The notes beneath the pieces are model-generated. The model was not told where the DNA came from, searched no databases, and worked only from the letters and a program-made list of their open reading frames with translations. Shown here in pieces: positions 9,017 through 32,542 of a DNA stretch of 34,191 nucleotides (positions are counted from its first letter, which is position 1; every line of letters starts with the position of its first letter). The position numbers were made by a program, and so were the translations under genes. This DNA comes from Thermodesulfobacteriota bacterium (lineage in GTDB: Bacteria > Desulfobacterota_D > UBA1144 > Nemesobacterales > CSP1-2): NCBI GenBank assembly GCA_036397855.1, contig DASWID010000058.1, forward strand, positions 1 to 34,191, given 5' to 3'.

Positions 9017-9748
9017 ATGATACGACGCTACGTTGAATGGATATACCTCCATGATGTCGAGTACTCTTTTGGAATTGACCTGCAGGGTATATTACACAAA
9101 AGGGTGTCATGTCTACGCTCAGATACAACTGGATTTCTTTTGCTTGTTGAACATAGATCAGTTATTACGATTGGAAGATTCGGTAATAATAGTAATATCT
9201 TATATCCCGAAGAATATTTAAAAGAAAGGGGTATTGTTGTGCATAAGGCGTCCCGCGGGGGAGATGTCACTTTTCATGGACCGGGCCAGCTCGTTGGATA
9301 CCCAATAATAAATCTGAGGGGTTTTAAGTTGGGGATTAAATCTTATGTAAATTTATTAGAGGAAACAATAATTGATGTGCTTAAAGATTTTGATATAGTG
9401 GCGGAGAGGAGGCATGGGTATCCGGGTGTCTGGATTGGCACAGAAAAGATCGCCTCTATAGGTATCCAGGTGAGTAAACGCATATCTATGCATGGGGTGG
9501 CATTGAATGTAAGCAATGATCTCGATAACTTTTCTCTGATAGTTCCCTGTGGCATTAGTGAGGGGGGTGTAACATCCGTAAAGAAATTGATTAATGGTAC
9601 AATTCCGCTCGGGCAGGTCGCACATTGCTTTGCCAGGGAATTCGGGAAGAAATTCGATGCTCAAATCGAGGAAATCCCCGATTTGAACGGGTCGTCTATT
9701 CTAAGAGATGAAACTAGTACGAATATAATCGAAAAGTTCATGATTTAA
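9017..9748 (+). CDS. lipB: Octanoyl-[acyl-carrier-protein]:protein N-octanoyltransferase (lipoate biosynthesis)
   Basis: LipB moves the octanoyl group from ACP to lipoyl domains of dehydrogenase complexes and GcvH. Conserved blocks are SRGGDVTFHGPGQLVGYPII, the lysine motif GTEKIASIGIQ, HGVALNVSNDL and the catalytic cysteine in VPCGI. The ATG at 9017 is preferred over TTG 8993 because AAAGGG lies about 6 bases upstream and the resulting N-terminus (MIRRYVEWIYLHDVEYSFG) matches LipB proteins. The protein has 243 residues, slightly long at the C-terminus. lipA is not next door in this window. It is divergent from holA. Confidence 0.93.
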   Translation: MIRRYVEWIYLHDVEYSFGIDLQGILHKRVSCLRSDTTGFLLLVEHRSVITIGRFGNNSNILYPEEYLKERGIVVHKASRGGDVTFHGPGQLVGYPIINLRGFKLGIKSYVNLLEETIIDVLKDFDIVAERRHGYPGVWIGTEKIASIGIQVSKRISMHGVALNVSNDLDNFSLIVPCGISEGGVTSVKKLINGTIPLGQVAHCFAREFGKKFDAQIEEIPDLNGSSILRDETSTNIIEKFMI

Positions 9749-10100
9749 GGTGGTTATATCTCAATTAAAGGGACGCTCCAAGCTTCGAAACCATACGAAC
9801 GGGGACATGGGTTACACATATCTCCTCCCCCATTTGTGGACCACCCTAGCTTGGTACCCCCTTTATTGAAGCCGAAGGGGTGATTAAATTCAGTTAACAT
9901 TTTTCGGAGGATTGTGGTATTGATGATTAATTATACAATATCAATGCGCTCAGGTTGAACGGAACGGAAACATACAGGAAGTGCCAGAGAAATAATGTAT
10001 ACTCCTCATCTTGATCGCGCCCTTTGGGACAAGATTCTGTGAACTTTTTACCTTCCACTAGGAGGAGCATATCAGTCTTACCCCTCCTAAGAGAACCGAT

Positions 10101-19504: not shown

Positions 19505-21529
19505 ATGTCTTCCAAGAGGATCATAATAATTGGAGGAGGCTTTGCTGGCGTAAAGTGTGCTAAAACCTTGTTTAATGGACTGCCTAAAGAGGAATACGAA
19601 ATAGTTCTCTTCAATAGTGAAAACTATATGGTTTTTCAGCCGCTTTTGGCTGAAGTAGTAGGAGCGTCAATAAACCCTGATTCGGTCGCCGTCTCTCTGA
19701 GGCAGTTGTTGCCCGGTGTACTATGTCGAACTGAGGATATAAATAAAATAAATTTTGTGAATGATACCGTCGAATACGAAGGTTCGGAAAGCAGAGTGGG
19801 AGTGATGAGTTATGATCATCTAGTGATTGCTAGTGGGTCGGTTGTGAATCTTGGTGTTATACCTGGTATGGCTGACCATACCTTTCCACTCAAAAATGTG
19901 GGTGATGCTATTGCGTTGCGTTACCATATTATGCAACAGTTGGAGAATGGGGAGGTCTGTGACGATCCTGAATTGAGGCGTTGGTATCTATCATTCATAG
20001 TTGTAGGTGGAGGCTTCAGCGGAGTAGAGGTTGCTGGAGAGATCAATGATTTGGTAAGAGAGACTCAGAAATTTTACAAGAATATCAGACCTGATGATAT
20101 CTCAGTGACTATAATACATTCAAGGGATCAGCTTCTTCCGGAGGTAACCACCAAGCTCCGAGACTTTGCTAAGGTGAAAATGGAGGAGGCTGGGATTAAG
20201 ATAGTTTTGAACACCAGCGTATCTTTTGTGACTCCTCAGGGAGTAGGAATAAGCGGAGATACCTTTATGCAGGGAGCTACCGTTGTTAGTACAATCGGTA
20301 ACGCCATTTCTCAATTTTTGGGTAGGTTAGATGTTCCTAAAGAACGAGGACGGATACTTACAGAACCCGACATGCGAGTGAAAGGATGCAATAATGTATG
20401 GGCAATTGGAGACTGTGCGCACATAGTCAATTCATTTGATGGAAATCCTAGCCCTCCGACTGGCCAGTTTGCCGAAAGGCAGGGCAGGCTGGCTGCAAAT
20501 AATATGATTCGGGTTTTAAATGAAAAGAAAACGAAACCGTTTTACTTCAAACCAATTGGTCAGCTATGTGCGATTGGTGGACATAATGCAGTAGCTGAGA
20601 TATTCGGAATGCATATTTCAGGTTTCATCGCCTGGTTTTTCTGGAGAACCGTCTATATGTTTAAACTTCCTTCCTTGTCCCATAGAATCAAGGTTGGTTT
20701 CGATTGGGCATGGGATCTTTTTTATTCGCGTGACTTAGCACACCCAAAAGCAGATCCTACCGATCGTATATCGAGGGCTCACTATCAACCAGGTGACTGT
20801 ATTTTTATGCAAGGCGATCCTGGCACTAATTTCTATGTAATCGAGAGTGGTGAAGTAGAGGTAATTAGAAATGGTGAAGAAGGTAAATCTCGAAGTATTC
20901 TAGCTGTTCTTGGTCCGGGTGATTTCTTTGGGGAAATGGCTTTAATTGATAACCATCCACGTAACGCTACCATACGTGCGCGAACCGCTGTCGAGGTTCT
21001 TGTAATGGGAAGAAACGTTTTTCAACAAATTTCGAGCACAATGGCCCCTTTTCGTGAGATTCTCGCTAATGCTGTGAGAAGAAGGAGTGGATATCTTTGG
21101 CAAAGATTTCCCCTTGCTGATGAAATTCTAAAAAACCAGCCCTTTTCGTCGTTTGTAGAACATTTGGATGTATATTTACACCCAGAAAGCACTTTTGAGG
21201 ATGCACTTAACCTATTAAGTGAAAAATCTCTGGAATACTGTTGTGTTGTTGATAATGACAATACATTGAAAGGTATTCTAACCAGGACAGATTTTGTTCG
21301 TGCCGTAGATTCAGGGGTTAAACGTCATACAAAGGTGCGTGAATTCATGAAGGCAGATCCCATTATAGTAACAGTAAATGAGGAAACACCGTCCGTAGCT
21401 GCAACTATGCGGCTCCATGATATCAAATGGATGCCGGTTGTTGAAGATCTTGATAGTCGCAAAATTAAGGGTTATGTTAGGATTGATAGAATAATGAAGT
21501 TTGTCCTGCAGCATTTACCCCAGCACTAA
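19505..21529 (+). CDS. Type II NADH dehydrogenase-like flavoprotein fused to cyclic-nucleotide-binding and CBS domains
   Basis: 674 residues in three parts. Residues 1-410 are an NDH-2-type oxidoreductase: FAD-binding RIIIIGGGFAGVKCAKTL (about 5-22), NAD(P)H-binding FIVVGGGFSGVEVAGEI (about 164-180), VWAIGDCAH, a PPTGQFAERQG quinone-side motif and a C-terminal amphipathic membrane-binding part near FWRTVYMFKLPSL. Residues about 425-545 form a cNMP-binding domain (YQPGDCIFMQGDPGTNFYVI, GPGDFFGEMALIDNHPRNAT). Residues about 557-672 are a pair of CBS motifs. The expected role is electron transfer from NADH to membrane quinone without proton pumping, gated by a nucleotide signal. The ATG follows AGAGGA at a normal distance. 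All motifs look intact and there is no frameshift. Confidence 0.88.
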   Translation: MSSKRIIIIGGGFAGVKCAKTLFNGLPKEEYEIVLFNSENYMVFQPLLAEVVGASINPDSVAVSLRQLLPGVLCRTEDINKINFVNDTVEYEGSESRVGVMSYDHLVIASGSVVNLGVIPGMADHTFPLKNVGDAIALRYHIMQQLENGEVCDDPELRRWYLSFIVVGGGFSGVEVAGEINDLVRETQKFYKNIRPDDISVTIIHSRDQLLPEVTTKLRDFAKVKMEEAGIKIVLNTSVSFVTPQGVGISGDTFMQGATVVSTIGNAISQFLGRLDVPKERGRILTEPDMRVKGCNNVWAIGDCAHIVNSFDGNPSPPTGQFAERQGRLAANNMIRVLNEKKTKPFYFKPIGQLCAIGGHNAVAEIFGMHISGFIAWFFWRTVYMFKLPSLSHRIKVGFDWAWDLFYSRDLAHPKADPTDRISRAHYQPGDCIFMQGDPGTNFYVIESGEVEVIRNGEEGKSRSILAVLGPGDFFGEMALIDNHPRNATIRARTAVEVLVMGRNVFQQISSTMAPFREILANAVRRRSGYLWQRFPLADEILKNQPFSSFVEHLDVYLHPESTFEDALNLLSEKSLEYCCVVDNDNTLKGILTRTDFVRAVDSGVKRHTKVREFMKADPIIVTVNEETPSVAATMRLHDIKWMPVVEDLDSRKIKGYVRIDRIMKFVLQHLPQH

Positions 21530-21620: not shown

Positions 21621-22298
21621 ATGAATAGAATTCTTATAATAACCTCAGTGTCTCTGGTAGTTTTGATCCTGGGTTTATCGAATGTCCGGGCGAGCCATGA
21701 TACTTTAACTGTCAGTCAATTTAGGCAGTTATACGAAAGTTTACTTGCAGAGAAAACACTTGTAAGTGAGATAAAAAAGGATGGAATGGATGTTAGAAAA
21801 GAAAGGATTTTTGGGAAGGCTATTGATATTGATGACGGTCAATTTGAACTACCTGTAAAGATAATAATCACAACCAGCAAGAATGGGGAAATTCAACAAA
21901 AGATTGCAATTGATGTTTTGGATGTGGTACATAATTTGGGTGGTTCTGCTATATTTTCTGAAGAGGTAAGAAAAACTTCTATTGAGAATAAAGGACAGGA
22001 ACCATTTACGACTAGCGAAGTACAATTCCAAGGTGAGTTTCACCTTCAAAAAAACGATAAAGGTGGATTTGATGTTCACAATTTTGGATTACAACCATCT
22101 GTTCTTGTAAAGGACGGTAGCACGAGTTTGGCTGGAAACATGATGTTATATTCATGTTTTCCAGAGAGCGGCGTTACCAAATGTGTGTTAACTATCCGAG
22201 ATTACGTGTTGGGTGAATATAAACCATTAGAAGGATTTGCGCTCGTTGAACCCGCTGGTGGAGACGTTGTGGAAGTTGGCGTAGAGGTTAAACAATAA
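21621..22298 (+). CDS. Exported protein of unknown function (225 aa)
   Basis: Not recognised. An N-terminal signal peptide (MNRILIITSVSLVVLILGLSN, likely cut near VRA-SH) exports it to the periplasm. The mature part starts with a helical TVSQFRQLYESLLAEKTLVSE, then alternating beta-like segments (FELPVKIIITTS, KIAIDVLDVVHNLG, EVQFQGEFHL), and two cysteines (CFPESGVTKC) that could form a disulphide. GAGGAGGT lies just before the ATG. It follows the NDH-2 fusion by 91 bases and precedes a glycine-zipper lipoprotein by 88, in the same direction, so the three may form an envelope-related operon. Confidence 0.7.
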   Translation: MNRILIITSVSLVVLILGLSNVRASHDTLTVSQFRQLYESLLAEKTLVSEIKKDGMDVRKERIFGKAIDIDDGQFELPVKIIITTSKNGEIQQKIAIDVLDVVHNLGGSAIFSEEVRKTSIENKGQEPFTTSEVQFQGEFHLQKNDKGGFDVHNFGLQPSVLVKDGSTSLAGNMMLYSCFPESGVTKCVLTIRDYVLGEYKPLEGFALVEPAGGDVVEVGVEVKQ

Positions 22299-22386: not shown

Positions 22387-22767
22387 ATGATGAGAAAAAT
22401 AATTTTTGCCTTTTCAATAATGGGCATGTTAGCGTCATGTGCTACTTATAATCCCGTGGTTGATCCTCAGTCTGTACGAAGTGATGATAAATATTATCAG
22501 GATCGTGCAGAATGCCGTGCGTTAGCACAGGCAAACACAAGTACTACGAAATCAGTGGCCAAGGATGCATTAATTGGAGGTGCGGTTGGAGCGGGCACCG
22601 GATCATTAATTGGGGTAATTGCCGGCGATACTGTCAAGGGCCTAGCCCTTGGTTCGGTTATAGGTGGTGTGGCAGGTGGAGCTAAGGGCGTCTATGAAGG
22701 TAATAAAGATTATGAACAAATTTATAGAAATTGCATGATCGGAAGGGGATATAAGGTCCTTAATTAA
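22387..22767 (+). CDS. Glycine-zipper lipoprotein (17-kDa antigen/OmpA-like glycine-zipper type)
   Basis: 126 residues. A signal peptide ends in the lipobox LASC (cysteine about residue 18), marking a lipid-anchored envelope protein. A glycine-zipper stretch (ALIGGAVGAGTGSLIGVIAG and LALGSVIGGVAGGAKGVYEG, about 64-105) would pack into or across a membrane. Two further cysteines (ECRALAQ and NCMIGRGY) and the closing CMIGRGYKVLN are typical of this lipoprotein family. GGAGG sits 6 bases before the ATG. A terminator-like hairpin follows at 22787. Confidence 0.8.
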   Translation: MMRKIIFAFSIMGMLASCATYNPVVDPQSVRSDDKYYQDRAECRALAQANTSTTKSVAKDALIGGAVGAGTGSLIGVIAGDTVKGLALGSVIGGVAGGAKGVYEGNKDYEQIYRNCMIGRGYKVLN

Positions 22768-23487: not shown

Positions 23488-24036
23488 CTATTGGTCATTA
23501 ATAGTAATCTTATCCAGATACTCAGTGGGGACAGAGCCGAGGTCATTTGTTACCTGTATTACACCATTATCATCGACCCACTTGTAAATAGGCCGTTTTT
23601 TGGCCGGGGTTGAAGGGGAGCCAATAGAAATTGATTCTTGAGAGCTTAGAGTATCTTCAATGGGAATATCATTTGTTACATCATCAACATTGTCGTCATC
23701 CTGCATCTGTTCCTGCATAGGGGGGTTAACCTGAAGATTGCTGGGCCTCTCCGTGCTCTTTCCAAACGTTGATCCCCCTCCTTCATTTCCGAGCGTGGAC
23801 ATCCCAAATGGGTTTAGGTTTTCATCAGGCCAGTAGTAATACCAGGGCACGTCCGATTCTCCTTGGATGATTGCAGGTTGTTGCGAACCACTTGTGGGAG
23901 ACTGATCCCCCCCAGAGCTACCATCTGGTGCGCTCTCCGTCGTCTGTGAAAAGACGTAGTCTGAAAGCGAAAAATAAAAGGCGGCAATTATAACAACGTT
24001 TACTAAAAATAACTTTATGATGTTAGGTCTTACCAT
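23488..24036 (-). CDS. Exported protein with disordered acidic linker and C-terminal DUF4124-like domain
   Basis: 182 residues from ATG 24036 (TTG 24054 is possible). A hydrophobic signal segment (IIKLFLVNVVIIAAFYFSL) precedes a long low-complexity stretch rich in Ser, Gly, Pro, Gln and Asp (about residues 30-145), probably disordered. The last 40 residues include PIYKWVDDNGVIQVTNDLGS, the signature of DUF4124 domains (Y-K-W-x-D-x-x-G) found in many envelope proteins. The function is unknown. It is downstream of the RND remnant in the same direction but separated by about 70 bases. Confidence 0.65.
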   Translation of the reverse strand: MVRPNIIKLFLVNVVIIAAFYFSLSDYVFSQTTESAPDGSSGGDQSPTSGSQQPAIIQGESDVPWYYYWPDENLNPFGMSTLGNEGGGSTFGKSTERPSNLQVNPPMQEQMQDDDNVDDVTNDIPIEDTLSSQESISIGSPSTPAKKRPIYKWVDDNGVIQVTNDLGSVPTEYLDKITINDQ

Positions 24037-24107
24037 TGCTAATAATATAAACAATAAGTGCTCAAATTAAAATCCCTCTCCAAATAAAGAACTTTTTACT
24101 CATCCAT

Positions 24108-24451
24108 TTATATACGGGATATATTCAGGTGGCAGGGGGGGATTCTGAAAAAGATTGTGTATAATACAGGCACAAAAATGAGGGTAAGCACAGTTGCAAA
24201 AAGGAATCCGAACATTATTGTGACGGCCATGGAAACAAAGAAAGCATCCTGTAGAAGAGGTGTCATGCCGAGTCCTCTGCTTCGCCTCCCCAAGCTATGT
24301 AATACCCCGGCATACCCATGAAAGGTAACTGATCTGACTCTCTTATTCGTATACCCTGATGATTGAAGTCTTTGAAGGGGTCATCTTCAGGACCAAAGTC
24401 TGGGCCCTTTCTAACGTCTAATTTAAGCAGTTTGATATCGACAGCTTTCAC
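24108..24451 (-). pseudogene. Remnant of an RND efflux pump inner-membrane subunit
   Basis: Two overlapping frames on the minus strand look like pieces of one decayed gene. The 24108-24293 frame encodes LGMTPLLQDAFFVSMAVTI followed by MFGFLFATVLTLIFVPVLY and TIFFRI, the last transmembrane hairpin of RND (AcrB/CzcA-like) pumps. The 24263-24451 frame ends in MPGYYIAWGGEAEDSA, resembling the EWGGEYEDSA motif that in intact pumps lies well over a hundred residues upstream. The two are joined with a frameshift, so a large internal part is missing. It begins 36 bases after the TolC-fusion gene, where an RND gene would normally follow. The first frame is less certain than the second. Confidence 0.65.
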
Positions 24452-24487: not shown

Positions 24488-26902
24488 CTATTGCGTTGGC
24501 TGTCTCATTCCTTCTGCAGTGAAAAATTCCTCCAATCTATTGAGCCATTCCAGTCTTTCTTCGTCTGAGGTAAAGAAGTCGAACTTACCCGAGGCTCGTT
24601 GTACGTTCATTAGGTCAATAAGGAAATCATATACAGCTGTCGCAGCATTTAGATCTGCAGCTAATGCAGCGTTTTGCGCATCGAGAAGGTCGAGTATTGA
24701 TACAACGCCCCTAGAGTAAGAATCTCTAACTAAATCTAGGTTTTTTCGGGCAGCTTCTGCCGCATCTCGCGCAAAGCGTATGCTTGGGAATGAGGCTCCG
24801 GTGTTGTTTAGTGCTGATCGTATATTCTCTTCAACCTTTTCTGCCGTGGAGTCACGCTCAAATCGAAGTTGCGATTCGGCTTCTCTGGCTTGTTTATAAT
24901 CTGCGACTTTAGCCCCGCCTCGGAAGAGAGGGAACTTAGCCTGAAGCAAAATAGTCCATTCTGTATCGTCTACACTCTCCAATTGTAAAGGGAAATCTTG
25001 AGGTATAATTACGTCCGAACCTGCTCCTCCATCAGCAAACATCTGTGTTATGTCTCCCACAAATGAAAAGGACGGGAGCCAGAACGCTCGTTTTGTCGAC
25101 TTTAAGATTCGATCTTGAGCCGCTATCTGAGAGTCAATATTTTTAATTTCAGGAGATTGGTTTAGACCTTCATTAACCATGAAGTCAATGAAGATGCTAA
25201 AGCTTCCTGGATTATCGATATAAGGATAAAGTCTCGGGTCGCTTACTATTAGAGAAGGGTCGTCTACTCCAACTTCTACCGTTTCAAAATCTTCACCTTG
25301 ACTGCGGTTTAATAACCGGTTTACTAGGATCTTTGCATTTTGGGTTTGAGCTACGGCGTCGACAACGTCAATTCGGTCAAGAGATATTTCGCTCTCCCAG
25401 CGAAACACCTCCGCGGGGCTGGCAACGCCTATATCACGTCTATTTTTAGCAATTTCAAGATTGGATTTTGAAAGATTGAGATTGTCTTTTCTTATTTTTT
25501 CAAATGTCTTTGCTCTGAGAACATTCAAATAGCCAATTGAGGTAGCCGCTATTATATCTAGTCTTATCTGATCACGGCTCAATTCACGAGCCCTTTGAAG
25601 ATATTTTTGCACGCTAACATTTGCCCAAGTTGGCTCATCGAAAATCAACTGGCGGACACTGGCTGATCCACTTAGTGAACGTTCCGGAAACGTTCCAAAG
25701 CTTGCCGTAGCCCTGTCTTTGTCAATATAAGCATTGTCAAGCGATACTTGTGCTTGAGGAAGCAGTTGTGCGATAGCTAACCATATATCCTGTGCGCCGG
25801 CTGCAACAAATCTATCGATTGCCAAGAGATCAAGATTCACTTTAACGGATTCATCAACAGCTTCTTCTAATGTCAATTTCCTTTCGGATACCTCCGGTTC
25901 TTCCTGAATGAGATCAGCTTCCGTTAGAACATCCCATTTTGGTGAGAATCCGATAGCACGGGCGGTAGCCATATTGATGGTGAGCTCTTCCTGAACAGGG
26001 AATTCAACTGGGAGGGAACCTGCATCTTCACCAAGCAATATACTTAGTGTTGTCAGCGCCACTCTTCTTGCTTCACGGTTTAAGTTTTGAGCGGGTGTGA
26101 GACCTGCGAGAACACCTCGCTCAACTTCATTTCTGCCTAGCATCGAAAAGCTCGGTAGTTTCCTTTCAATCAAGCCGTCAAAGAGATGATCCAATTCATC
26201 CTGTGTGTATTGTAGAAGGGGAGCGACGAAAACTGCCTGCGCATCTTCGGGTATTGCGGCTAATGTGTTTTCTATGGAAGTTTTGACCGGAACAGTTACT
26301 ATTGCAATACCTCGCTCTCTAGCAATTCTTTGGACCACATTTTCAACGTCAGGGATGAGTTGAGTAACGATTGGCATATACAGGAGTGCCATTCTATTAA
26401 ATGGTACTATCTCCCTGAAAACTTGTATATCTCTACTTAGCGTAATGGGTCTTGCAAGGTAGTACAGATTTCTTACGCCACTCGCTCCTTTTTCATTGAT
26501 AGGGAGCCCTAATAACCCCCTATCAATAACCCATGGTGCTATTACAGGTTTATTTAAGTTCCTTCGTTTAGAGACCTCTGTTGAACCGATGATTCCAAGT
26601 GCGATGAGGATGTCTACACCGGGATCGGATAGCAATGTGTCAATTGCTGATCTAACGCTTGCAGCAGTCCAGTCAGCCTGAATTATCTTATCCGTGGGAA
26701 ATTGAACATCGAATTCCCCTTCCGTGACCGCAATAATTTCTTTCTTATAGATACTCAGAGCCCTTTGATTAAGTTCAGAAGGGCCGTCAATTACGATTCC
26801 AATTCGCTTTATTGGTAGGGCATAAGATTTTACCGGTATTGCTATTAAGATAAATAATATAAGTAGTAATTTGTTTGTGATATCGTGCTTTACCGATCTC
26901 AT
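24488..26902 (-). CDS. Periplasmic-binding-protein (ABC_sub_bind) domain fused to a TolC-family outer-membrane efflux channel
   Basis: About 804 residues from ATG 26902 (GGGAGGA upstream). A signal peptide (about 1-29) leads to an N-terminal domain of about 300 residues resembling the ABC_sub_bind periplasmic binding proteins: RIGIVIDGPSELN, VDILIALGIIGSTEV, NKPVIAPWVIDRG, AVFVAPLLQYT. From about 340 a TolC/OEP domain begins with LTLEEAVDESVKVNLDLLAI and contains two related helical halves (LDIIAATSIGYLNVLRAKTF and VEENIRSALNNTGASFPSIR) ending near residue 780 in DLMNVQRASGKFDFF. Normal TolC proteins are about 450-500 residues. The likely role is an outer-membrane exit duct whose periplasmic mouth carries a ligand-binding or partner-docking module. 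The frame is intact throughout. Confidence 0.85.
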   Translation of the reverse strand: MRSVKHDITNKLLLILFILIAIPVKSYALPIKRIGIVIDGPSELNQRALSIYKKEIIAVTEGEFDVQFPTDKIIQADWTAASVRSAIDTLLSDPGVDILIALGIIGSTEVSKRRNLNKPVIAPWVIDRGLLGLPINEKGASGVRNLYYLARPITLSRDIQVFREIVPFNRMALLYMPIVTQLIPDVENVVQRIARERGIAIVTVPVKTSIENTLAAIPEDAQAVFVAPLLQYTQDELDHLFDGLIERKLPSFSMLGRNEVERGVLAGLTPAQNLNREARRVALTTLSILLGEDAGSLPVEFPVQEELTINMATARAIGFSPKWDVLTEADLIQEEPEVSERKLTLEEAVDESVKVNLDLLAIDRFVAAGAQDIWLAIAQLLPQAQVSLDNAYIDKDRATASFGTFPERSLSGSASVRQLIFDEPTWANVSVQKYLQRARELSRDQIRLDIIAATSIGYLNVLRAKTFEKIRKDNLNLSKSNLEIAKNRRDIGVASPAEVFRWESEISLDRIDVVDAVAQTQNAKILVNRLLNRSQGEDFETVEVGVDDPSLIVSDPRLYPYIDNPGSFSIFIDFMVNEGLNQSPEIKNIDSQIAAQDRILKSTKRAFWLPSFSFVGDITQMFADGGAGSDVIIPQDFPLQLESVDDTEWTILLQAKFPLFRGGAKVADYKQAREAESQLRFERDSTAEKVEENIRSALNNTGASFPSIRFARDAAEAARKNLDLVRDSYSRGVVSILDLLDAQNAALAADLNAATAVYDFLIDLMNVQRASGKFDFFTSDEERLEWLNRLEEFFTAEGMRQPTQ

Positions 26903-27233
26903 CTTATGGTATCCTCCCATACGGAACAAAAAACATTAGAGTATACATAAAGCCTTGGATTTGAAAAAAATAAGTTTTAAAAAGACAAAGGTTGATTTTT
27001 TAGTAAATAGGGACAACGCACAACTTTTTTGGTGTTATGTTTAATAAGTGTTAAAAATGGTGAACCAATGTTCTCCCATGTATTACTTTATGTTTTTGGT
27101 CTTTCACGATTAACTAAAGGGGAATATTATATTTTTAAACACCAAGCTTTTTCTCAAAACGCAGAAATCGAGAAAATAGTAGAGTGGTACGTGTACGGGA
27201 TATTAAAAATAGATTCTGATCAAGCTTCAAGAA
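26903..27233. other. AT-rich intergenic region upstream of the TolC fusion
   Basis: About 330 bases hold the TolC-fusion ribosome-binding site (GGGAGGA at about 26910-26917) and little else. A weak open frame (27029-27259, plus) overlaps the 3' end of the GlsB-like gene and is not supported. No structured RNA was seen. Confidence 0.35.
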
Positions 27234-27497
27234 TTATTTTCGCCCAGCTTTACCTTTAACCATGCGGTAGAGCCATAACAAGATTAAAGCTCCGACAAGC
27301 GCTATAATTATGCTCCAAAGGTTTAATCCCGTTACTGTGCTTAAGCCTACGAGAGAGCTTAAGAATCCTCCTATCAATGCCCCAACGATCCCAATGACAA
27401 TTGTGATTATGATCCCACCCGGGTCCTCACCCGGCATGATCCATTTTGCCAAAGCTCCTACGATTAATCCCAGGATAATCCATGAAATGATTCCCAT
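27234..27497 (-). CDS. GlsB/YeaQ/YmgE-family stress-response membrane protein
   Basis: 87 residues with the start at ATG 27497, where GGAGG lies 6 bases upstream. The opening MGIISWIILGLIVGALAKWI with the MPGEDPGG signature is diagnostic of transglycosylase-associated/GlsB membrane proteins. Three hydrophobic segments span the inner membrane (about 3-20, 27-50 and 55-78), ending in a basic tail (MVKGKAGRK). Homologues are often induced by acid, osmotic or general stress. It stands alone here. The function is not biochemically defined. Confidence 0.9.
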   Translation of the reverse strand: MGIISWIILGLIVGALAKWIMPGEDPGGIIITIVIGIVGALIGGFLSSLVGLSTVTGLNLWSIIIALVGALILLWLYRMVKGKAGRK

Positions 27498-27905
27498 GTT
27501 TCCTCCGTAAGGAATTTGCAAGGATAAACATTGAGTTGCTGTTTAGCCTAACTCTTTATGCTATGACATGCAAATGATTCTACAATCTTGAACCAGTATA
27601 AAATGAACTACCTGTGAAATCAACTCTCTGTGCTTAAAATGAATTTGGGGACAAAGTTTTGACGTTTTTATCATGAGTACAGTATAAATCTTTGATTGTG
27701 CCCAACGGTATTATCTGTATTGCCGTGTTTGTGTTCTTATTCTGGGAAAGATTTATTGTATTTAGTCACGATTTTTTAAGATATGTTATTAGTCTTAAAG
27801 TAACAATCGAAAGCTAAATCAATATTAGTTTTTCATTAATAATTCTTTAAATAAATCATACAGCGGTGAGAATAATGAATGAAGCTCTTTGCTGGAGGAA
27901 ACAAA
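27498..27905. other. Divergent intergenic region of about 400 bp
   Basis: No gene or strong hairpin. It lies upstream of both the GlsB-like gene and the small membrane-protein ORF, so promoters are expected, but none was identified with confidence. The GCTGGAGGAA at 27891-27900 is the ribosome-binding site of the following ORF. Confidence 0.35.
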
Positions 27906-28067
27906 ATGGAGAACAGTTTAAATATCAAGGACTGTTGGTCATCAATAAAACATTATAGAAGGCATACGAAATTTTTATATCTTTTATCTTCAATAATTTT
28001 TCTTATTGTTACATCTCCATTCTCGCGCCAAGGCATTGGTAGTCAAATTATATTGATCTTTATGTGA
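27906..28067 (+). CDS. Small membrane protein of unknown function (53 aa)
   Basis: The ATG at 27906 follows GGAGG by 8 bases, a clear translation signal that distinguishes this from chance frames. The product starts with a polar MENSLNIKDCWSSIKHYRRH and continues with a single hydrophobic span (FLYLLSSIIFLIVTSPF), then a short tail and a hydrophobic end (SQIILIFM). It is too short for family assignment. It may be a leader or stress peptide, or decayed. Confidence 0.4.
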   Translation: MENSLNIKDCWSSIKHYRRHTKFLYLLSSIIFLIVTSPFSRQGIGSQIILIFM

Positions 28068-28293
28068 AAGTGTTCAAGAAGAACGGGGTCATGCCTGTAT
28101 TATTACGGCATGTATTTCACTAAACTAACTCGCCGCATTTAACATTTTGTTCTCCGAGAAAATCGTGGACAATATACCTTTTATTTTAGGTAAAAAAACT
28201 GAATTACAAGAATATAGGCCTGACTCCCCTTATTATTACCCCCCCTTTACTTCATTTTCACTGCGATGGCGTTGCCGCCCCTCCGGTTCATCT

Positions 28294-28680
28294 TCACCAG
28301 CTCTCTGGTTCCCCTTCGAAAGGCTGCTCTGGTAGTGACGGCTGCTCTTCTGGTAAAAGTGGTTCTTCCTCAGGTACGTAAGGCTGTTCCGGCAAGTTAG
28401 GATCTTCTTCGGGTAAATAAGGTTCTTCTTCGGGAACATATGGTTCTTCGGGTGGTGCTACGCCTTCTTCTTCCGGGTATGGTTCTTCTTCAGGAATCAA
28501 GGGTTCTTCTTGAACTAATTGTTTTGTTTTACGAGAGTCGAATTCCGGAATATCGTTATCGCTGACTAAGGAATCATAATATCCTATTGCACTATGTACA
28601 AAATTCGTTAACAGAGAGGCATGAGATGCCCGAACATTCGTGCAAAGGATTAGAGCTACTAGAATAATGTTTTTTATCAT
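28294..28680 (-). CDS. Exported Pro/Glu-rich repeat protein
   Basis: 128 residues. A signal peptide (MIKNIILVALILCTNVRASHA) is followed by a 35-residue segment, then an extreme Pro-Glu-rich C-terminal half (about 57-121) built from PEEEP/LPEE/LPEQ units. Residues 81-100 and 101-120 are a clean tandem duplication of a 20-residue unit. The composition suggests an extended, acidic, periplasm-spanning or surface-exposed spacer, comparable in style to the Pro-rich linkers of TonB. No family is recognised. Confidence 0.65.
   Translation of the reverse strand: MIKNIILVALILCTNVRASHASLLTNFVHSAIGYYDSLVSDNDIPEFDSRKTKQLVQEEPLIPEEEPYPEEEGVAPPEEPYVPEEEPYLPEEDPNLPEQPYVPEEEPLLPEEQPSLPEQPFEGEPESW
28321..28440. 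repeat. Two tandem 60-bp coding repeats
   Basis: Two adjacent 60-base copies (28381-28440 and 28321-28380) encode PYVPEEEP-type units within the Pro/Glu-rich protein. Shorter GGTTCTTCTTC-like units extend the repeat pattern to about 28510. Confidence 0.6.
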
Positions 28681-28968: not shown

Positions 28969-30114
28969 ATGGAGAATACGTTACGAGCTATTAATACTGT
29001 CTCTCTTAATACTGAAGTCATCGAGGAAGGGGCTCTTAAGCTAATAATCGATGGGAGACTTGATTCGAATTCAACCGGGAAAATGTGGCGCGAGTCATTA
29101 CTTGCGGTTGATAAATATTCTCCGGAAAAGGTCATTCTAGATGCTTCCGGAGTGAGTTACTGTGACGGTACTGGAATTGCTCTTCTGTTTGATCTCCAGT
29201 TAAAGCAAATACAAAGAGGTGGAGTGTTTGAGATTCTAGGACTGGCAGAAGAGTTTCAACAATTATTTGACCAATTCAAACCTAGTGAGTTCATCGAAGC
29301 TAAGATAGAGGCACCTGAACCTTCGAACATTTTTGTGAACGTTGGCAGGCAAACAATTGATATATTTCGGGGGATAGAAGCTAACATATCATTTCTGGGG
29401 GAAATAGTGGTTGCACTTTTTTATGCAATGCTTAATCCCAAAAGTGTTCGATGGAAAGATTTTTTCATCACTTCTGAATTGATTGGTGTTAATGCCTTTT
29501 CTATCGTTGCACTCGTATGTTTTCTTATCGGTCTTGTAATGGCTTTTCAAGCCGCAATACCTATGCAGCAATACGGCGCACAGTTGTTTGTGGCGGACCT
29601 GATTGTGATTGCTATGTTCAAGGAGCTCGGGCCTCTGATGACCGCTTGGGTGGTTAATGGTCGTAGCGGGTCAGCCTTTGCAGCAGAACTTGGCACTATG
29701 AAGGTAAATGAAGAAATTGACGCGCTCACTACAATGGGGCTCGAACCGGTTAGATTTTTGGTCGTACCTAAGGTGTTGGCATCATTCGTTATGATACCGG
29801 TTCTTACTATATTTGGAAATCTGTTTGGTCTCATAGGCGGATTGGTGGTTATGCTTTCTCTGGGGTTTACTATCGTAACATATGTCGATCAAATAGTGTC
29901 TGCGGCAACATATGTTATGCTTCTGGCAGGCCTTATCAAATCAGTTGTTTTTGCATTTATAATAGCGGGTGTTGGATGTATGGAGGGACTTCGAACCAAG
30001 ACAGGCGCATCAGCGGTTGGAGATTCTACCACCTCGGCTGTTGTTATTGGCCTTGTGTTGATTATATTTGTAGACGGTGTTTTTGGGGTTATTTATTACT
30101 TCTTAGGGATTTAA
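28969..30114 (+). CDS. mlaE: MlaE-family lipid ABC transporter permease with N-terminal STAS (MlaB-like) domain
   Basis: 381 residues. Residues about 15-115 are a STAS domain (KLIIDGRLDSNSTGKMW, KVILDASGVSYCDGTGIALL), the role played by separate MlaB in E. coli. Residues about 120-380 are the MlaE permease with five or six membrane helices, GPLMTAWVVNGRSGSAFAAE and the conserved cytoplasmic loop MKVNEEIDALTTMGLEPVRF. It moves phospholipids between inner membrane and MlaD to maintain outer-membrane asymmetry. The stop is immediately followed by the mlaF ATG. No strong Shine-Dalgarno precedes the start. Confidence 0.92.
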   Translation: MENTLRAINTVSLNTEVIEEGALKLIIDGRLDSNSTGKMWRESLLAVDKYSPEKVILDASGVSYCDGTGIALLFDLQLKQIQRGGVFEILGLAEEFQQLFDQFKPSEFIEAKIEAPEPSNIFVNVGRQTIDIFRGIEANISFLGEIVVALFYAMLNPKSVRWKDFFITSELIGVNAFSIVALVCFLIGLVMAFQAAIPMQQYGAQLFVADLIVIAMFKELGPLMTAWVVNGRSGSAFAAELGTMKVNEEIDALTTMGLEPVRFLVVPKVLASFVMIPVLTIFGNLFGLIGGLVVMLSLGFTIVTYVDQIVSAATYVMLLAGLIKSVVFAFIIAGVGCMEGLRTKTGASAVGDSTTSAVVIGLVLIIFVDGVFGVIYYFLGI

Positions 30115-30894
30115 ATGAAAATGGGTGGAGATATGGATCCAATTATTAGAGTTGAAAATTTTACCGCTGCTTACGGAGGTAGTGTAATAATAGATAATAT
30201 ATCCTTCGATGTTTGTCCTGGCGAAGTTTTTGTCATTCTTGGTGGATCGGGATGCGGGAAGAGTACAGTACTAAAACACATGATAGGTCTATACGCACCT
30301 GCCGCGGGTAAAATTATTATTGATGGTGATGACATTTCCACTGCCGAAGGAGAAGATCGTCTTAGGATTTTAAAGAAGATCGGGGTTGCCTATCAGAGCG
30401 GGGCACTCTTTGGATCCATGACGATACTCGAAAATGTTCGGCTGCCCCTTGAGGAATATACAGATCTTTCTCCTGAAGCGATGGATCTCATCTCTCTCAT
30501 GAAACTGAAGCTTGTAGGGCTTTCAGGTTCTGAAAATAAAATGCCTTCTGAGCTTAGTGGAGGGATGCAGAAGCGTGCTGCCTTAGCGAGGGCAATGGCA
30601 CTGGATCCGCTCATTCTTTTTCTGGACGAGCCTTCAGCAGGACTGGACCCTATCACATCTGCTGAGCTCGATGAGCTAATCCTGCGCCTTTCTCGAAATC
30701 TTAAGATAACATTTGTTGTTGTAACCCATGAATTGCCGAGCATCTACACGATAGCGGATCGAGTCATTATGCTAGATAAACGTATAAAAGGCATAGTTGC
30801 AACTGGTAAGCCCCAGGAACTGCGTGACCAATCTGATAATGCCTGGGTGCGGCAATTTTTTAACAGACAGGTGGAGTCTGAGGTAGCAGCGTGA
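30115..30894 (+). CDS. mlaF: MlaF-family phospholipid ABC transporter ATP-binding protein
   Basis: This 259-residue ATPase powers the Mla lipid transporter. Walker A is LGGSGCGKSTVLKHM (about 45), the Q-loop is VAYQSGALFGSMTILENV, the ABC signature is SELSGGMQKRAALARAMALD (about 143-162), Walker B is LILFLDEPSAGLDP and the switch histidine is in VVTHELPS. The ATG directly abuts the mlaE TAA, indicating coupling; ATG 30133 would give a more typical N-terminus. The 30-base extension after the last strand (QFFNRQVESEVAA) matches the MlaF-type C-terminus. It belongs to the four-gene operon. Confidence 0.93.
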   Translation: MKMGGDMDPIIRVENFTAAYGGSVIIDNISFDVCPGEVFVILGGSGCGKSTVLKHMIGLYAPAAGKIIIDGDDISTAEGEDRLRILKKIGVAYQSGALFGSMTILENVRLPLEEYTDLSPEAMDLISLMKLKLVGLSGSENKMPSELSGGMQKRAALARAMALDPLILFLDEPSAGLDPITSAELDELILRLSRNLKITFVVVTHELPSIYTIADRVIMLDKRIKGIVATGKPQELRDQSDNAWVRQFFNRQVESEVAA

Positions 30895-30929
30895 TATATA
30901 CATAAGAATCTAATAATTAAATTAATTTT

Positions 30930-31910
30930 ATGAGCAGAAAACCAGATTTTTTCAAAGTTGGCATATTTGTTATTGTCGGATTGGTAATTTTATTTATAGG
31001 TATTATGGTTTTTGGTGGGAGTAAATATTTTCGTAAGAAAATCTATTTTGAGACCTATTTTGACCAATCAGTACAGGGGCTTTCAGTGGGTGCGCCTGTA
31101 AAGGTTCTCGGAGTTGATGTTGGAGCGGTAAGCGAAATATCATTTGTGCGCAGTGTATATAAATCTGATTTTCGATCTGCACCATATGTAATGGTAAGAG
31201 GTTTTTACTATCCAGAGACACTGGGCAGGGAAATCGATACTTATAGGGAATTCGAGGAGAGGGTTGAGAAATTAGTAGAGAAGGGGTTTAGATTGCAGTT
31301 AGCGTCTCAGGGTGTTACCGGAGTGGCATTTTTAAATGGAGGATTCTTTGAACCAGATCAGTATCCCCGTTACAAAATCGACTGGAAACCCGAGTATTTT
31401 TATATACCATCTGCCCCAAGTACCCTAACAACCATCACCGATTCGGTCACAGAGCTGACAAGAAGCATAAATCAAATTAACTTCAAGCAAATTGCGGATG
31501 ATATACAAACACTGTTAGAGGTTGTGACAAAGTCAGTCGAGGATGCTGAGATTGCTAATGTGAGCCAGGGTCTCCAGAATACAATACTGGAGTTTAAAAA
31601 GGTCGCGGCGAATTTGGATTCTTTAACCGGTAGCGAGGAATTAAAACAAAGTCTAAAGGATCTTAATAAGTCATTGGAAGATATAAAGACTGGTTCTGAA
31701 GATTTGCCAGAGGTGGTATCTAAGTTAAATACCATCTTGAATAGATTTGATAGTTTGGTAGCAAGTCGTCAAGCAGAAATTACAACAATTCTTCAGAATA
31801 TTTCTGTAATTTCGGAGGATCTTAGACGGTTCATGAATATAGCAAACAACTATCCGTCGTGGATTCTTTTTGGCAATCCTCCACCAAAGTTGAACGAGGC
31901 ACCTAAATGA
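30930..31910 (+). CDS. mlaD: MlaD/MCE-domain lipid-binding protein
   Basis: 326 residues. A short N-terminus and one membrane helix (FFKVGIFVIVGLVILFIGIM) anchor it in the inner membrane. The MCE domain follows (about 38-130: YFDQSVQGLSVGAPVKVLGV, with LQLASQGVTGVAFLNGGFF), forming the hexameric ring that carries lipid through the periplasm. The C-terminal half (about 165-310) is a long amphipathic helix rich in Leu/Ser/Asp/Glu, consistent with a coiled-coil or needle-like extension longer than in E. coli MlaD. Its stop overlaps the start of the lipoprotein gene in an ATGA. Confidence 0.92.
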   Translation: MSRKPDFFKVGIFVIVGLVILFIGIMVFGGSKYFRKKIYFETYFDQSVQGLSVGAPVKVLGVDVGAVSEISFVRSVYKSDFRSAPYVMVRGFYYPETLGREIDTYREFEERVEKLVEKGFRLQLASQGVTGVAFLNGGFFEPDQYPRYKIDWKPEYFYIPSAPSTLTTITDSVTELTRSINQINFKQIADDIQTLLEVVTKSVEDAEIANVSQGLQNTILEFKKVAANLDSLTGSEELKQSLKDLNKSLEDIKTGSEDLPEVVSKLNTILNRFDSLVASRQAEITTILQNISVISEDLRRFMNIANNYPSWILFGNPPPKLNEAPK

Positions 31911-32542
31911 TACTTAAGCACTACGGATATATTTGGCTCATTGTCTTTAATTTATTAATTCTGAATTTAGGATGTGTAGGTTTGCAAAAGAATTATCCAG
32001 AAAGAAAATACTATGTCTTCGATGTAACGCCATCAAACAATTACAATGAGAGTTCTAAGCATTCGGTTCTTGAAATTCGTAATTTTCGAGTTTCGCCTGC
32101 TTACTATGGAAATGAATTTGTGTACCGTGTAAGTGGCGATGGTTACGAGTCTGACTTTTATAACCAATTTTTTAAGTCACCTGCTTCACTTATAACCCAA
32201 GAAGCATTTAAATGGTTTTCACAAGCTAGCGCGTTTAAATATGTGGTCGTCGCACCCAGTGAAGTACCACCCGATTATATATTAGATGGATATATCAATA
32301 GCATATATGGCGATTATAGTGACACGGGGTTACCGAAGGCTGTACTGTCAGCCCAGCTCTTTTTGATTAAAGAAGATTCTGGTAAGAATAGCATTGTTTT
32401 TAATAAAAGTTACCAGAAAGTTGTCGATATTACTTCTCAATCCCCAACAGCGTTAGTTAATGGATGGAATGAAGCCCTGAATCAAACCTTGACTGAATTA
32501 GAAAGTGATCTCAGTAAGCTAAATTTAGAAGCTTCGCAATAG
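31907..32542 (+). CDS. ABC-type transport auxiliary lipoprotein (PqiC/YmbA-like) of the Mla/MCE cassette
   Basis: 211 residues. The signal peptide ends in a lipobox-like LNLGC (cysteine at about residue 23), so the protein should be lipid-anchored, probably to the outer membrane. The body follows the ABC_trans_aux/PqiC pattern: RKYYVFDV, VLEIRNFRVSPAYYGNEFVY, FYNQFFKSPASLITQEAFKW, ILDGYINSIYGD, NGWNEALNQTLTELESDL. It overlaps mlaD by four bases (ATGA), so it is translationally coupled. By analogy with PqiC and LetA/LetB systems it likely docks the MCE bridge to the outer membrane. Confidence 0.82.
   Translation: MILKHYGYIWLIVFNLLILNLGCVGLQKNYPERKYYVFDVTPSNNYNESSKHSVLEIRNFRVSPAYYGNEFVYRVSGDGYESDFYNQFFKSPASLITQEAFKWFSQASAFKYVVVAPSEVPPDYILDGYINSIYGDYSDTGLPKAVLSAQLFLIKEDSGKNSIVFNKSYQKVVDITSQSPTALVNGWNEALNQTLTELESDLSKLNLEASQ

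Follow-up and report, generated by a model that had tools for sequence, protein, structure and literature searches.

We report a gene coding for a TolC-type outer-membrane duct with a periplasmic-binding-protein-like head fused to its N-terminus, located in the window, that is, the whole stretch of DNA analysed (34,191 nucleotides). Taken together, the evidence is probably best explained by a headed exporter duct whose heads act as a docking collar and which has been orphaned in the window genome. To our knowledge, TolC-type ducts are thought to be without a substrate- or signal-binding part, and selection is credited to the pump and the adaptor. With a conserved, selected head found in distant phyla, alongside pumps of both the RND and the ABC kind, sensing, docking or selecting at the outer membrane becomes directly testable, and the carriers include isolates of Sulfuricurvum kujiense and Cetobacterium somerae. 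The window represents a natural case of a duct outliving its pump. Both domains, like the adaptor and pumps, belong to known kinds; what appears to be new is the headed duct as a class of ancient origin that forms operons. No description of such a fusion was found in the open literature searched, which included a 2021 review (PMC8277102). Database entries for headed ducts exist under the name of either half ('TolC family protein' or 'ABC transporter substrate binding protein'), and present annotation conceals the class behind the name of one half.

The gene and its parts are as follows.

24488..26902, minus strand: complete fusion gene of 804 amino acids, comprising a signal peptide, an ABC_sub_bind-like head and a TolC/OEP domain (open frame, Pfam and full-length homologues).
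26913..26917, minus strand: Shine-Dalgarno-like GGAGG, 10 nt 5' of the ATG of the fusion gene (sequence reading).
26819..26902, minus strand: probable signal peptide, residues 1-28, sequence MRSVKHDITNKLLLILFILIAIPVKSYA, with no lipobox cysteine.
25898..26815, minus strand: head domain, residues ~30-335, class I periplasmic-binding-protein fold of the ABC_sub_bind type (profile and structure model).
24578..25885, minus strand: TolC/OEP outer-membrane factor domain, residues ~340-775 (PF02321, TolC chains in PDB).

The reading-frame check gave 804 uninterrupted codons from an ATG start at 26902 down to 24488. The preliminary description had claimed one intact frame joining an ABC_sub_bind-like domain to a full TolC/OEP domain, and this was confirmed by the frame, Pfam and the fold match. 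In the domain search which it had proposed, OEP (PF02321) was found in two stretches with 145.9 bits, above the curated cut-off, and TolC chains in PDB matched the same half (E 2e-13). ABC_sub_bind (PF04392) matched the head at residues 146-329 with 22.6 bits, slightly below the curated cut-off of 25.9. Four homologous fusions pass this cut-off (L068, 26.2; L087, 33.5; L083, 40.1; Sulfuricurvum, 38.6 bits), the solved structure 3lkv, an ABC_sub_bind protein, is recovered by a profile built from the heads (E 5.6e-8), and the head-only predicted model is confident (pLDDT 92) and has ABC_sub_bind structures as its nearest solved relatives in Foldseek (3lkv, 3lft and 6hni; E 6e-17 to 2e-15, TM 0.73-0.79). 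Judged by these profiles and the predicted model, the weak match is therefore taken as real. The full-length AlphaFold model, a monomer built from 7 sequences, was unusable (pLDDT 52.7), and the structural comparison rests on the head model. A PF04392 family search across the window's own genome failed to recover even the window gene, so absence there means little. A fold search against viral proteins gave no convincing match.

Compared with the TolC/OprM outer membrane factors (PF02321, TIGR01844), the headed duct has the same two OEP repeats over ~435 residues, the same match to TolC chains and the same gene association with adaptor and pump, but it adds a 300-residue binding-protein head before the duct and scores under the cut-offs of the NCBIfam outer-membrane-factor subfamilies. 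The head resembles the ABC_sub_bind proteins (3LKV, VC_1101; 3LFT, SP1069; 6HNI, CD0873) in fold and length. Those proteins are free or lipid-anchored importer components, whereas the window head is neither; the fused heads also form a separate clade and have an extra segment near the ADWT motif.

Fusion homologues are known from other Candidatus Dadabacteria, Aminicenantes, S. kujiense, C. somerae and six further bacterial families. In the sister family, 6 genomes carry a full or contig-cut fusion with 60-65% identity to the window protein. The homologue on an Aminicenantes chromosome is 44-45% identical, that of S. kujiense DSM 16994 (SULKU_RS13415) 33%, and that of C. somerae, which has a shortened head, 22%. 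The six additional families came from a head-profile search of 387 genomes, of which 329 lie beyond the phylum. When a broader profile was applied to almost the same set of genomes, fused heads scored 325-436 bits and free binding proteins 63 at most. Within the limits of rooting and sampling, all fused heads fall on one side of a branch separating them from the free binding proteins (support 100/99), and all fused OEP halves fall on one side of a branch separating them from other ducts (99/99). Since heads and OEP halves each form a single clade, the headed duct appears to have arisen by one ancient fusion and to have been inherited as a unit; the pattern is as expected for such an origin, subject to the same limits of rooting and sampling. 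The homologues are equally fused, and the fusion thus withstands the two objections raised against it beforehand, namely that the halves are separate genes joined here by an artefact, and that the head has no ABC_sub_bind match.

The neighbours of the homologues, a survey of which had also been proposed, indicate what the fusion works with. A membrane-fusion adaptor of the HlyD/RND type is the next same-strand gene in 13 homologous loci (L031-L035, L068, L084, L085, L087, L088 and L109-L111). Where a third gene is visible, it is usually an RND permease (10 loci), and once, in S. kujiense, by Pfam an RbbA-like ABC-2 exporter. One headed duct (L086) has no adaptor or pump neighbours; the contexts of L036 (contig end) and L083 (scaffold gap) were left outside the count, and the seeming truncation of the fusion in L083 (genome G115) is a 100-N gap. 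The RND genes of these operons fall into at least two divergent groups (65% versus 35-37% identity to that of L031), so the headed duct is not bound to one pump. Because an adaptor and then an RND or ABC-2 pump follow in homologous loci, the headed duct is, on this gene-order evidence, the part of a tripartite exporter that sits in the outer membrane. The fusion protein would be its exit duct (outer membrane factor), with the ABC_sub_bind-derived domain permanently at the N-terminus. The operons resemble RND tripartite efflux operons (HAE-1-like) and YhiI-RbbA-type ABC-2 exporters in that adaptor and pump genes directly follow the duct homologues, and differ from them in that the headed duct gene stands first, with its head, and in that the adaptor and pump of the window are lost.

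On the S. kujiense plasmid pSULKU01 (L109, 7902-15158), the headed duct, the adaptor and the ABC-2 exporter lie behind a TetR regulator, with no RND gene. C. somerae plasmids (L110, L111) hold a pair of headed-duct paralogues. Their heads are much reduced, at ~260 residues, and match no Pfam family; adaptor and RND genes follow each duct.

Downstream of the fusion gene, the window contains the following features.

24266..24433, minus strand: RND permease remnant corresponding to residues ~839-896 of a homologous 1060-aa permease, 69% identical (tblastn, four homologous permeases).
24138..24272, minus strand: another piece of the RND permease gene, residues ~1012-1056, 87% identical; it abuts the first piece and lies in a different frame (tblastn, four homologous permeases).
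23488..24054, minus strand: DUF4124-like gene of 188 amino acids, 36% identical to L031:3352-3918 (Pfam DUF4124 weak).
22387..22767, plus strand: syntenic neighbour, 62% identical to L032:1009-1383 (locus orthologous).
21621..22298, plus strand: syntenic neighbour, 47% identical to L032:233-946 (synteny).

Both RND remnants lie directly downstream of the fusion gene, after its stop codon and ahead of the gene that follows. In a related operon the homologue of the DUF4124-like gene lies just past the RND gene, and it thus marks the far edge of a deletion; the syntenic neighbours further downstream make the locus orthologous to the related operons. No intact adaptor or RND permease is present at the window locus, where two RND pieces are left, and no close copy of either was found elsewhere in the assembly (best adaptor 31%, best RND 26% identity). 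The window genome has thus lost the adaptor gene and the greater part of the RND gene by deletion, and for this reason the copy is called an orphan duct. The transport role suggested in the preliminary description holds at the level of the family, where the fusion is conserved and stands in adaptor-pump operons; what that description missed is that the partner genes are deleted in the window, with RND remnants left behind.

If still working, the orphan duct would have to serve another pump. An adaptor-RND pair with no adjoining duct gene is present in the same genome on contigs C80 and, by matching ends, C153, and as a guess this pair may be its partner. The window branch is not long in the trees (0.23 and 0.21), and the window protein differs at 3 of 58 otherwise invariant sites, against 4-26 in other isolated lineages. 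With the frame intact, the branch ordinary and few invariant sites altered, the sequence gives no sign of decay in the window duct so far.

Similar losses were found in related genomes. G004, a member of the same family, has a frame of 76 codons in which residues ~50-70 of the adaptor run into residues ~1001-1059 of the RND permease, and it no longer has the headed-duct fusion. This adaptor-RND remnant (L062, 9093-9323) is bordered by a pump of the type found in a canonical operon of G041, a genome of the sister family. There, the canonical adaptor-RND-NodT duct operon (L063, 3797-9585) occupies the very site where synteny would place the headed-duct operon, beside an RND remnant (9714-9824); displacement by the canonical pump is a conceivable cause of the loss. 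The remnants in the window, G004 and G041 point to repeated loss of the headed-duct system in the phylum. It is a serious possibility, although we stop short of calling it probable, that the window gene is a passing remnant whose pump disappeared not long ago, which no longer has any function and which has decay ahead of it. The missing adaptor, the reduction of the RND gene to two out-of-frame pieces, the survival of just an adaptor-RND remnant in G004 and the canonical operon of G041 all agree with this, and the RND pieces are little more diverged than expected, so the loss may be recent. Against it stand the intact 804-codon frame with its ribosome-binding site, the ordinary branch with few changed invariant sites, and the C80/C153 pair, which could be served.

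We turn to the head itself. In the three closest pairs among related Dadabacteria, to which the estimate is limited because synonymous sites are saturated beyond them, the window copy included, dN/dS was 0.09-0.11 for the head and 0.045-0.06 for the OEP half. These values show that in these relatives the head and the OEP half are both under strong purifying selection. The closest solved relatives of the head bind Phe, Trp and Tyr (PMC6816091). The residues of this aromatic-amino-acid pocket (positions of Glu263/Ala and Tyr279/Gln, PMC6816091) differ in all fused heads, and the relatives' motifs EHPALD, ATPxAQ, TDP and DN, which presumably line the pocket, are not kept. The core-strand loops on the cleft side are no more conserved than the rest of the head (p 0.92), and the cleft loops of lobe 2 are among its least conserved parts (0.20 versus a mean of 0.35). 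Clade-specific conservation is concentrated instead at the N-terminal ends of the lobe 1 strands, on the face opposite the cleft, where the patch comprises window residues 93-97, 118-119 and 141-142; the p value of 0.0007 comes from a post hoc comparison and is uncorrected. DGP (39-41) and GxxxS (103-107), which rank among the best conserved motifs specific to the clade, follow lobe 1 core strands on the cleft side, and through them some ligand contact may survive. Parts of the fold are missing from the Cetobacterium heads, and one head type is used with both RND and ABC-2 pumps.

The N-terminus of a TolC-type duct sits near the equatorial domain, below the outer membrane. Three heads would on this account encircle the periplasmic barrel as a collar, the likeliest job of which would be docking and stabilisation (of the adaptor, the envelope or a neighbouring protomer) and not the sensing of one conserved ligand. 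In E. coli, TolC is encircled at its equatorial domain by the separate lipoprotein YbjP, the two forming a 3:3 complex (PMC13095208), and docking or stabilisation is the role proposed for YbjP. YbjP (PMC13095208, PMC13082787) forms a periplasmic ring such as the covalent head might form, by analogy only: it belongs to the DUF3828 family, is a separate lipoprotein and is confined to some Enterobacterales. From the post hoc conservation pattern and this analogy, a docking collar seems about twice as likely as one shared ligand, since the pocket motifs are lost, the cleft loops are unremarkable, the conserved patch lies opposite the cleft and the Cetobacterium heads are reduced.

For the same reasons, namely the altered pocket residues, the unremarkable cleft loops and the reduced Cetobacterium head, the earlier proposal that a periplasmic ligand gates or loads the duct is doubtful; the accompanying idea of a partner protein docked at the duct mouth comes near to the docking collar preferred here. 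A ligand-responsive duct, in which the head binds a small periplasmic solute and by closing controls the channel gate, permits the pump to assemble or passes substrate to the duct, is conceivable but doubtful. The two-lobed binding-protein fold, the aromatic ligands of the solved relatives (PMC6816091), the strong purifying selection on the head and the conservation of DGP and GxxxS across the fused clade speak for sensing; the lost selectivity residues, the poorly conserved lobe 2 cleft loops, the incomplete Cetobacterium fold and the sharing of one head type between RND and ABC-2 pumps weigh against it. A bolder form, which we consider unlikely, is that headed ducts are an ancient separate class in which a periplasmic solute sensed by the three heads either opens the duct or permits it to assemble with RND or ABC pumps, which would be interchangeable. 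If true, this would place a checkpoint on export at the outer membrane.

ABC_sub_bind proteins normally serve importers, and a free homologue in G004 adjoins an ABC permease and ATPase, which would suit an importer whose head captures a solute for uptake through the TolC-like channel. Among the loci read, no ABC importer permease or ATPase lies beside a fused gene; the fused genes accompany an adaptor and an export pump, either RND or ABC-2, and never the importer permease of the free proteins, and the importer reading, highly improbable on this ground, was rejected.

An assembly or frame artefact, in the fusion or in the neighbour deletion, is scarcely credible even though the window spans one complete contig of a draft assembly broken into 195 contigs, since independent genomes carry the same fusion, which rules out an artefact there, and the remnants record two separate deletions and a frame change, unlike a single misjoin.

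Other features of the window were also noted. Positions 26930-28294 comprise ~1.3 kb without any 100-codon frame. At this place a CVNH-domain gene is present in related loci, and a search for a remnant of it found none. A type II NADH dehydrogenase-like protein of 674 amino acids (19505-21529, plus strand) is fused to a cyclic-nucleotide-binding domain and two CBS domains, an unusual architecture for a regulated oxidoreductase. An Mla-type lipid transport operon (28969-32542, plus strand) encodes a STAS-MlaE fusion, an ATPase, an MlaD-like protein and an ABC_trans_aux lipoprotein.
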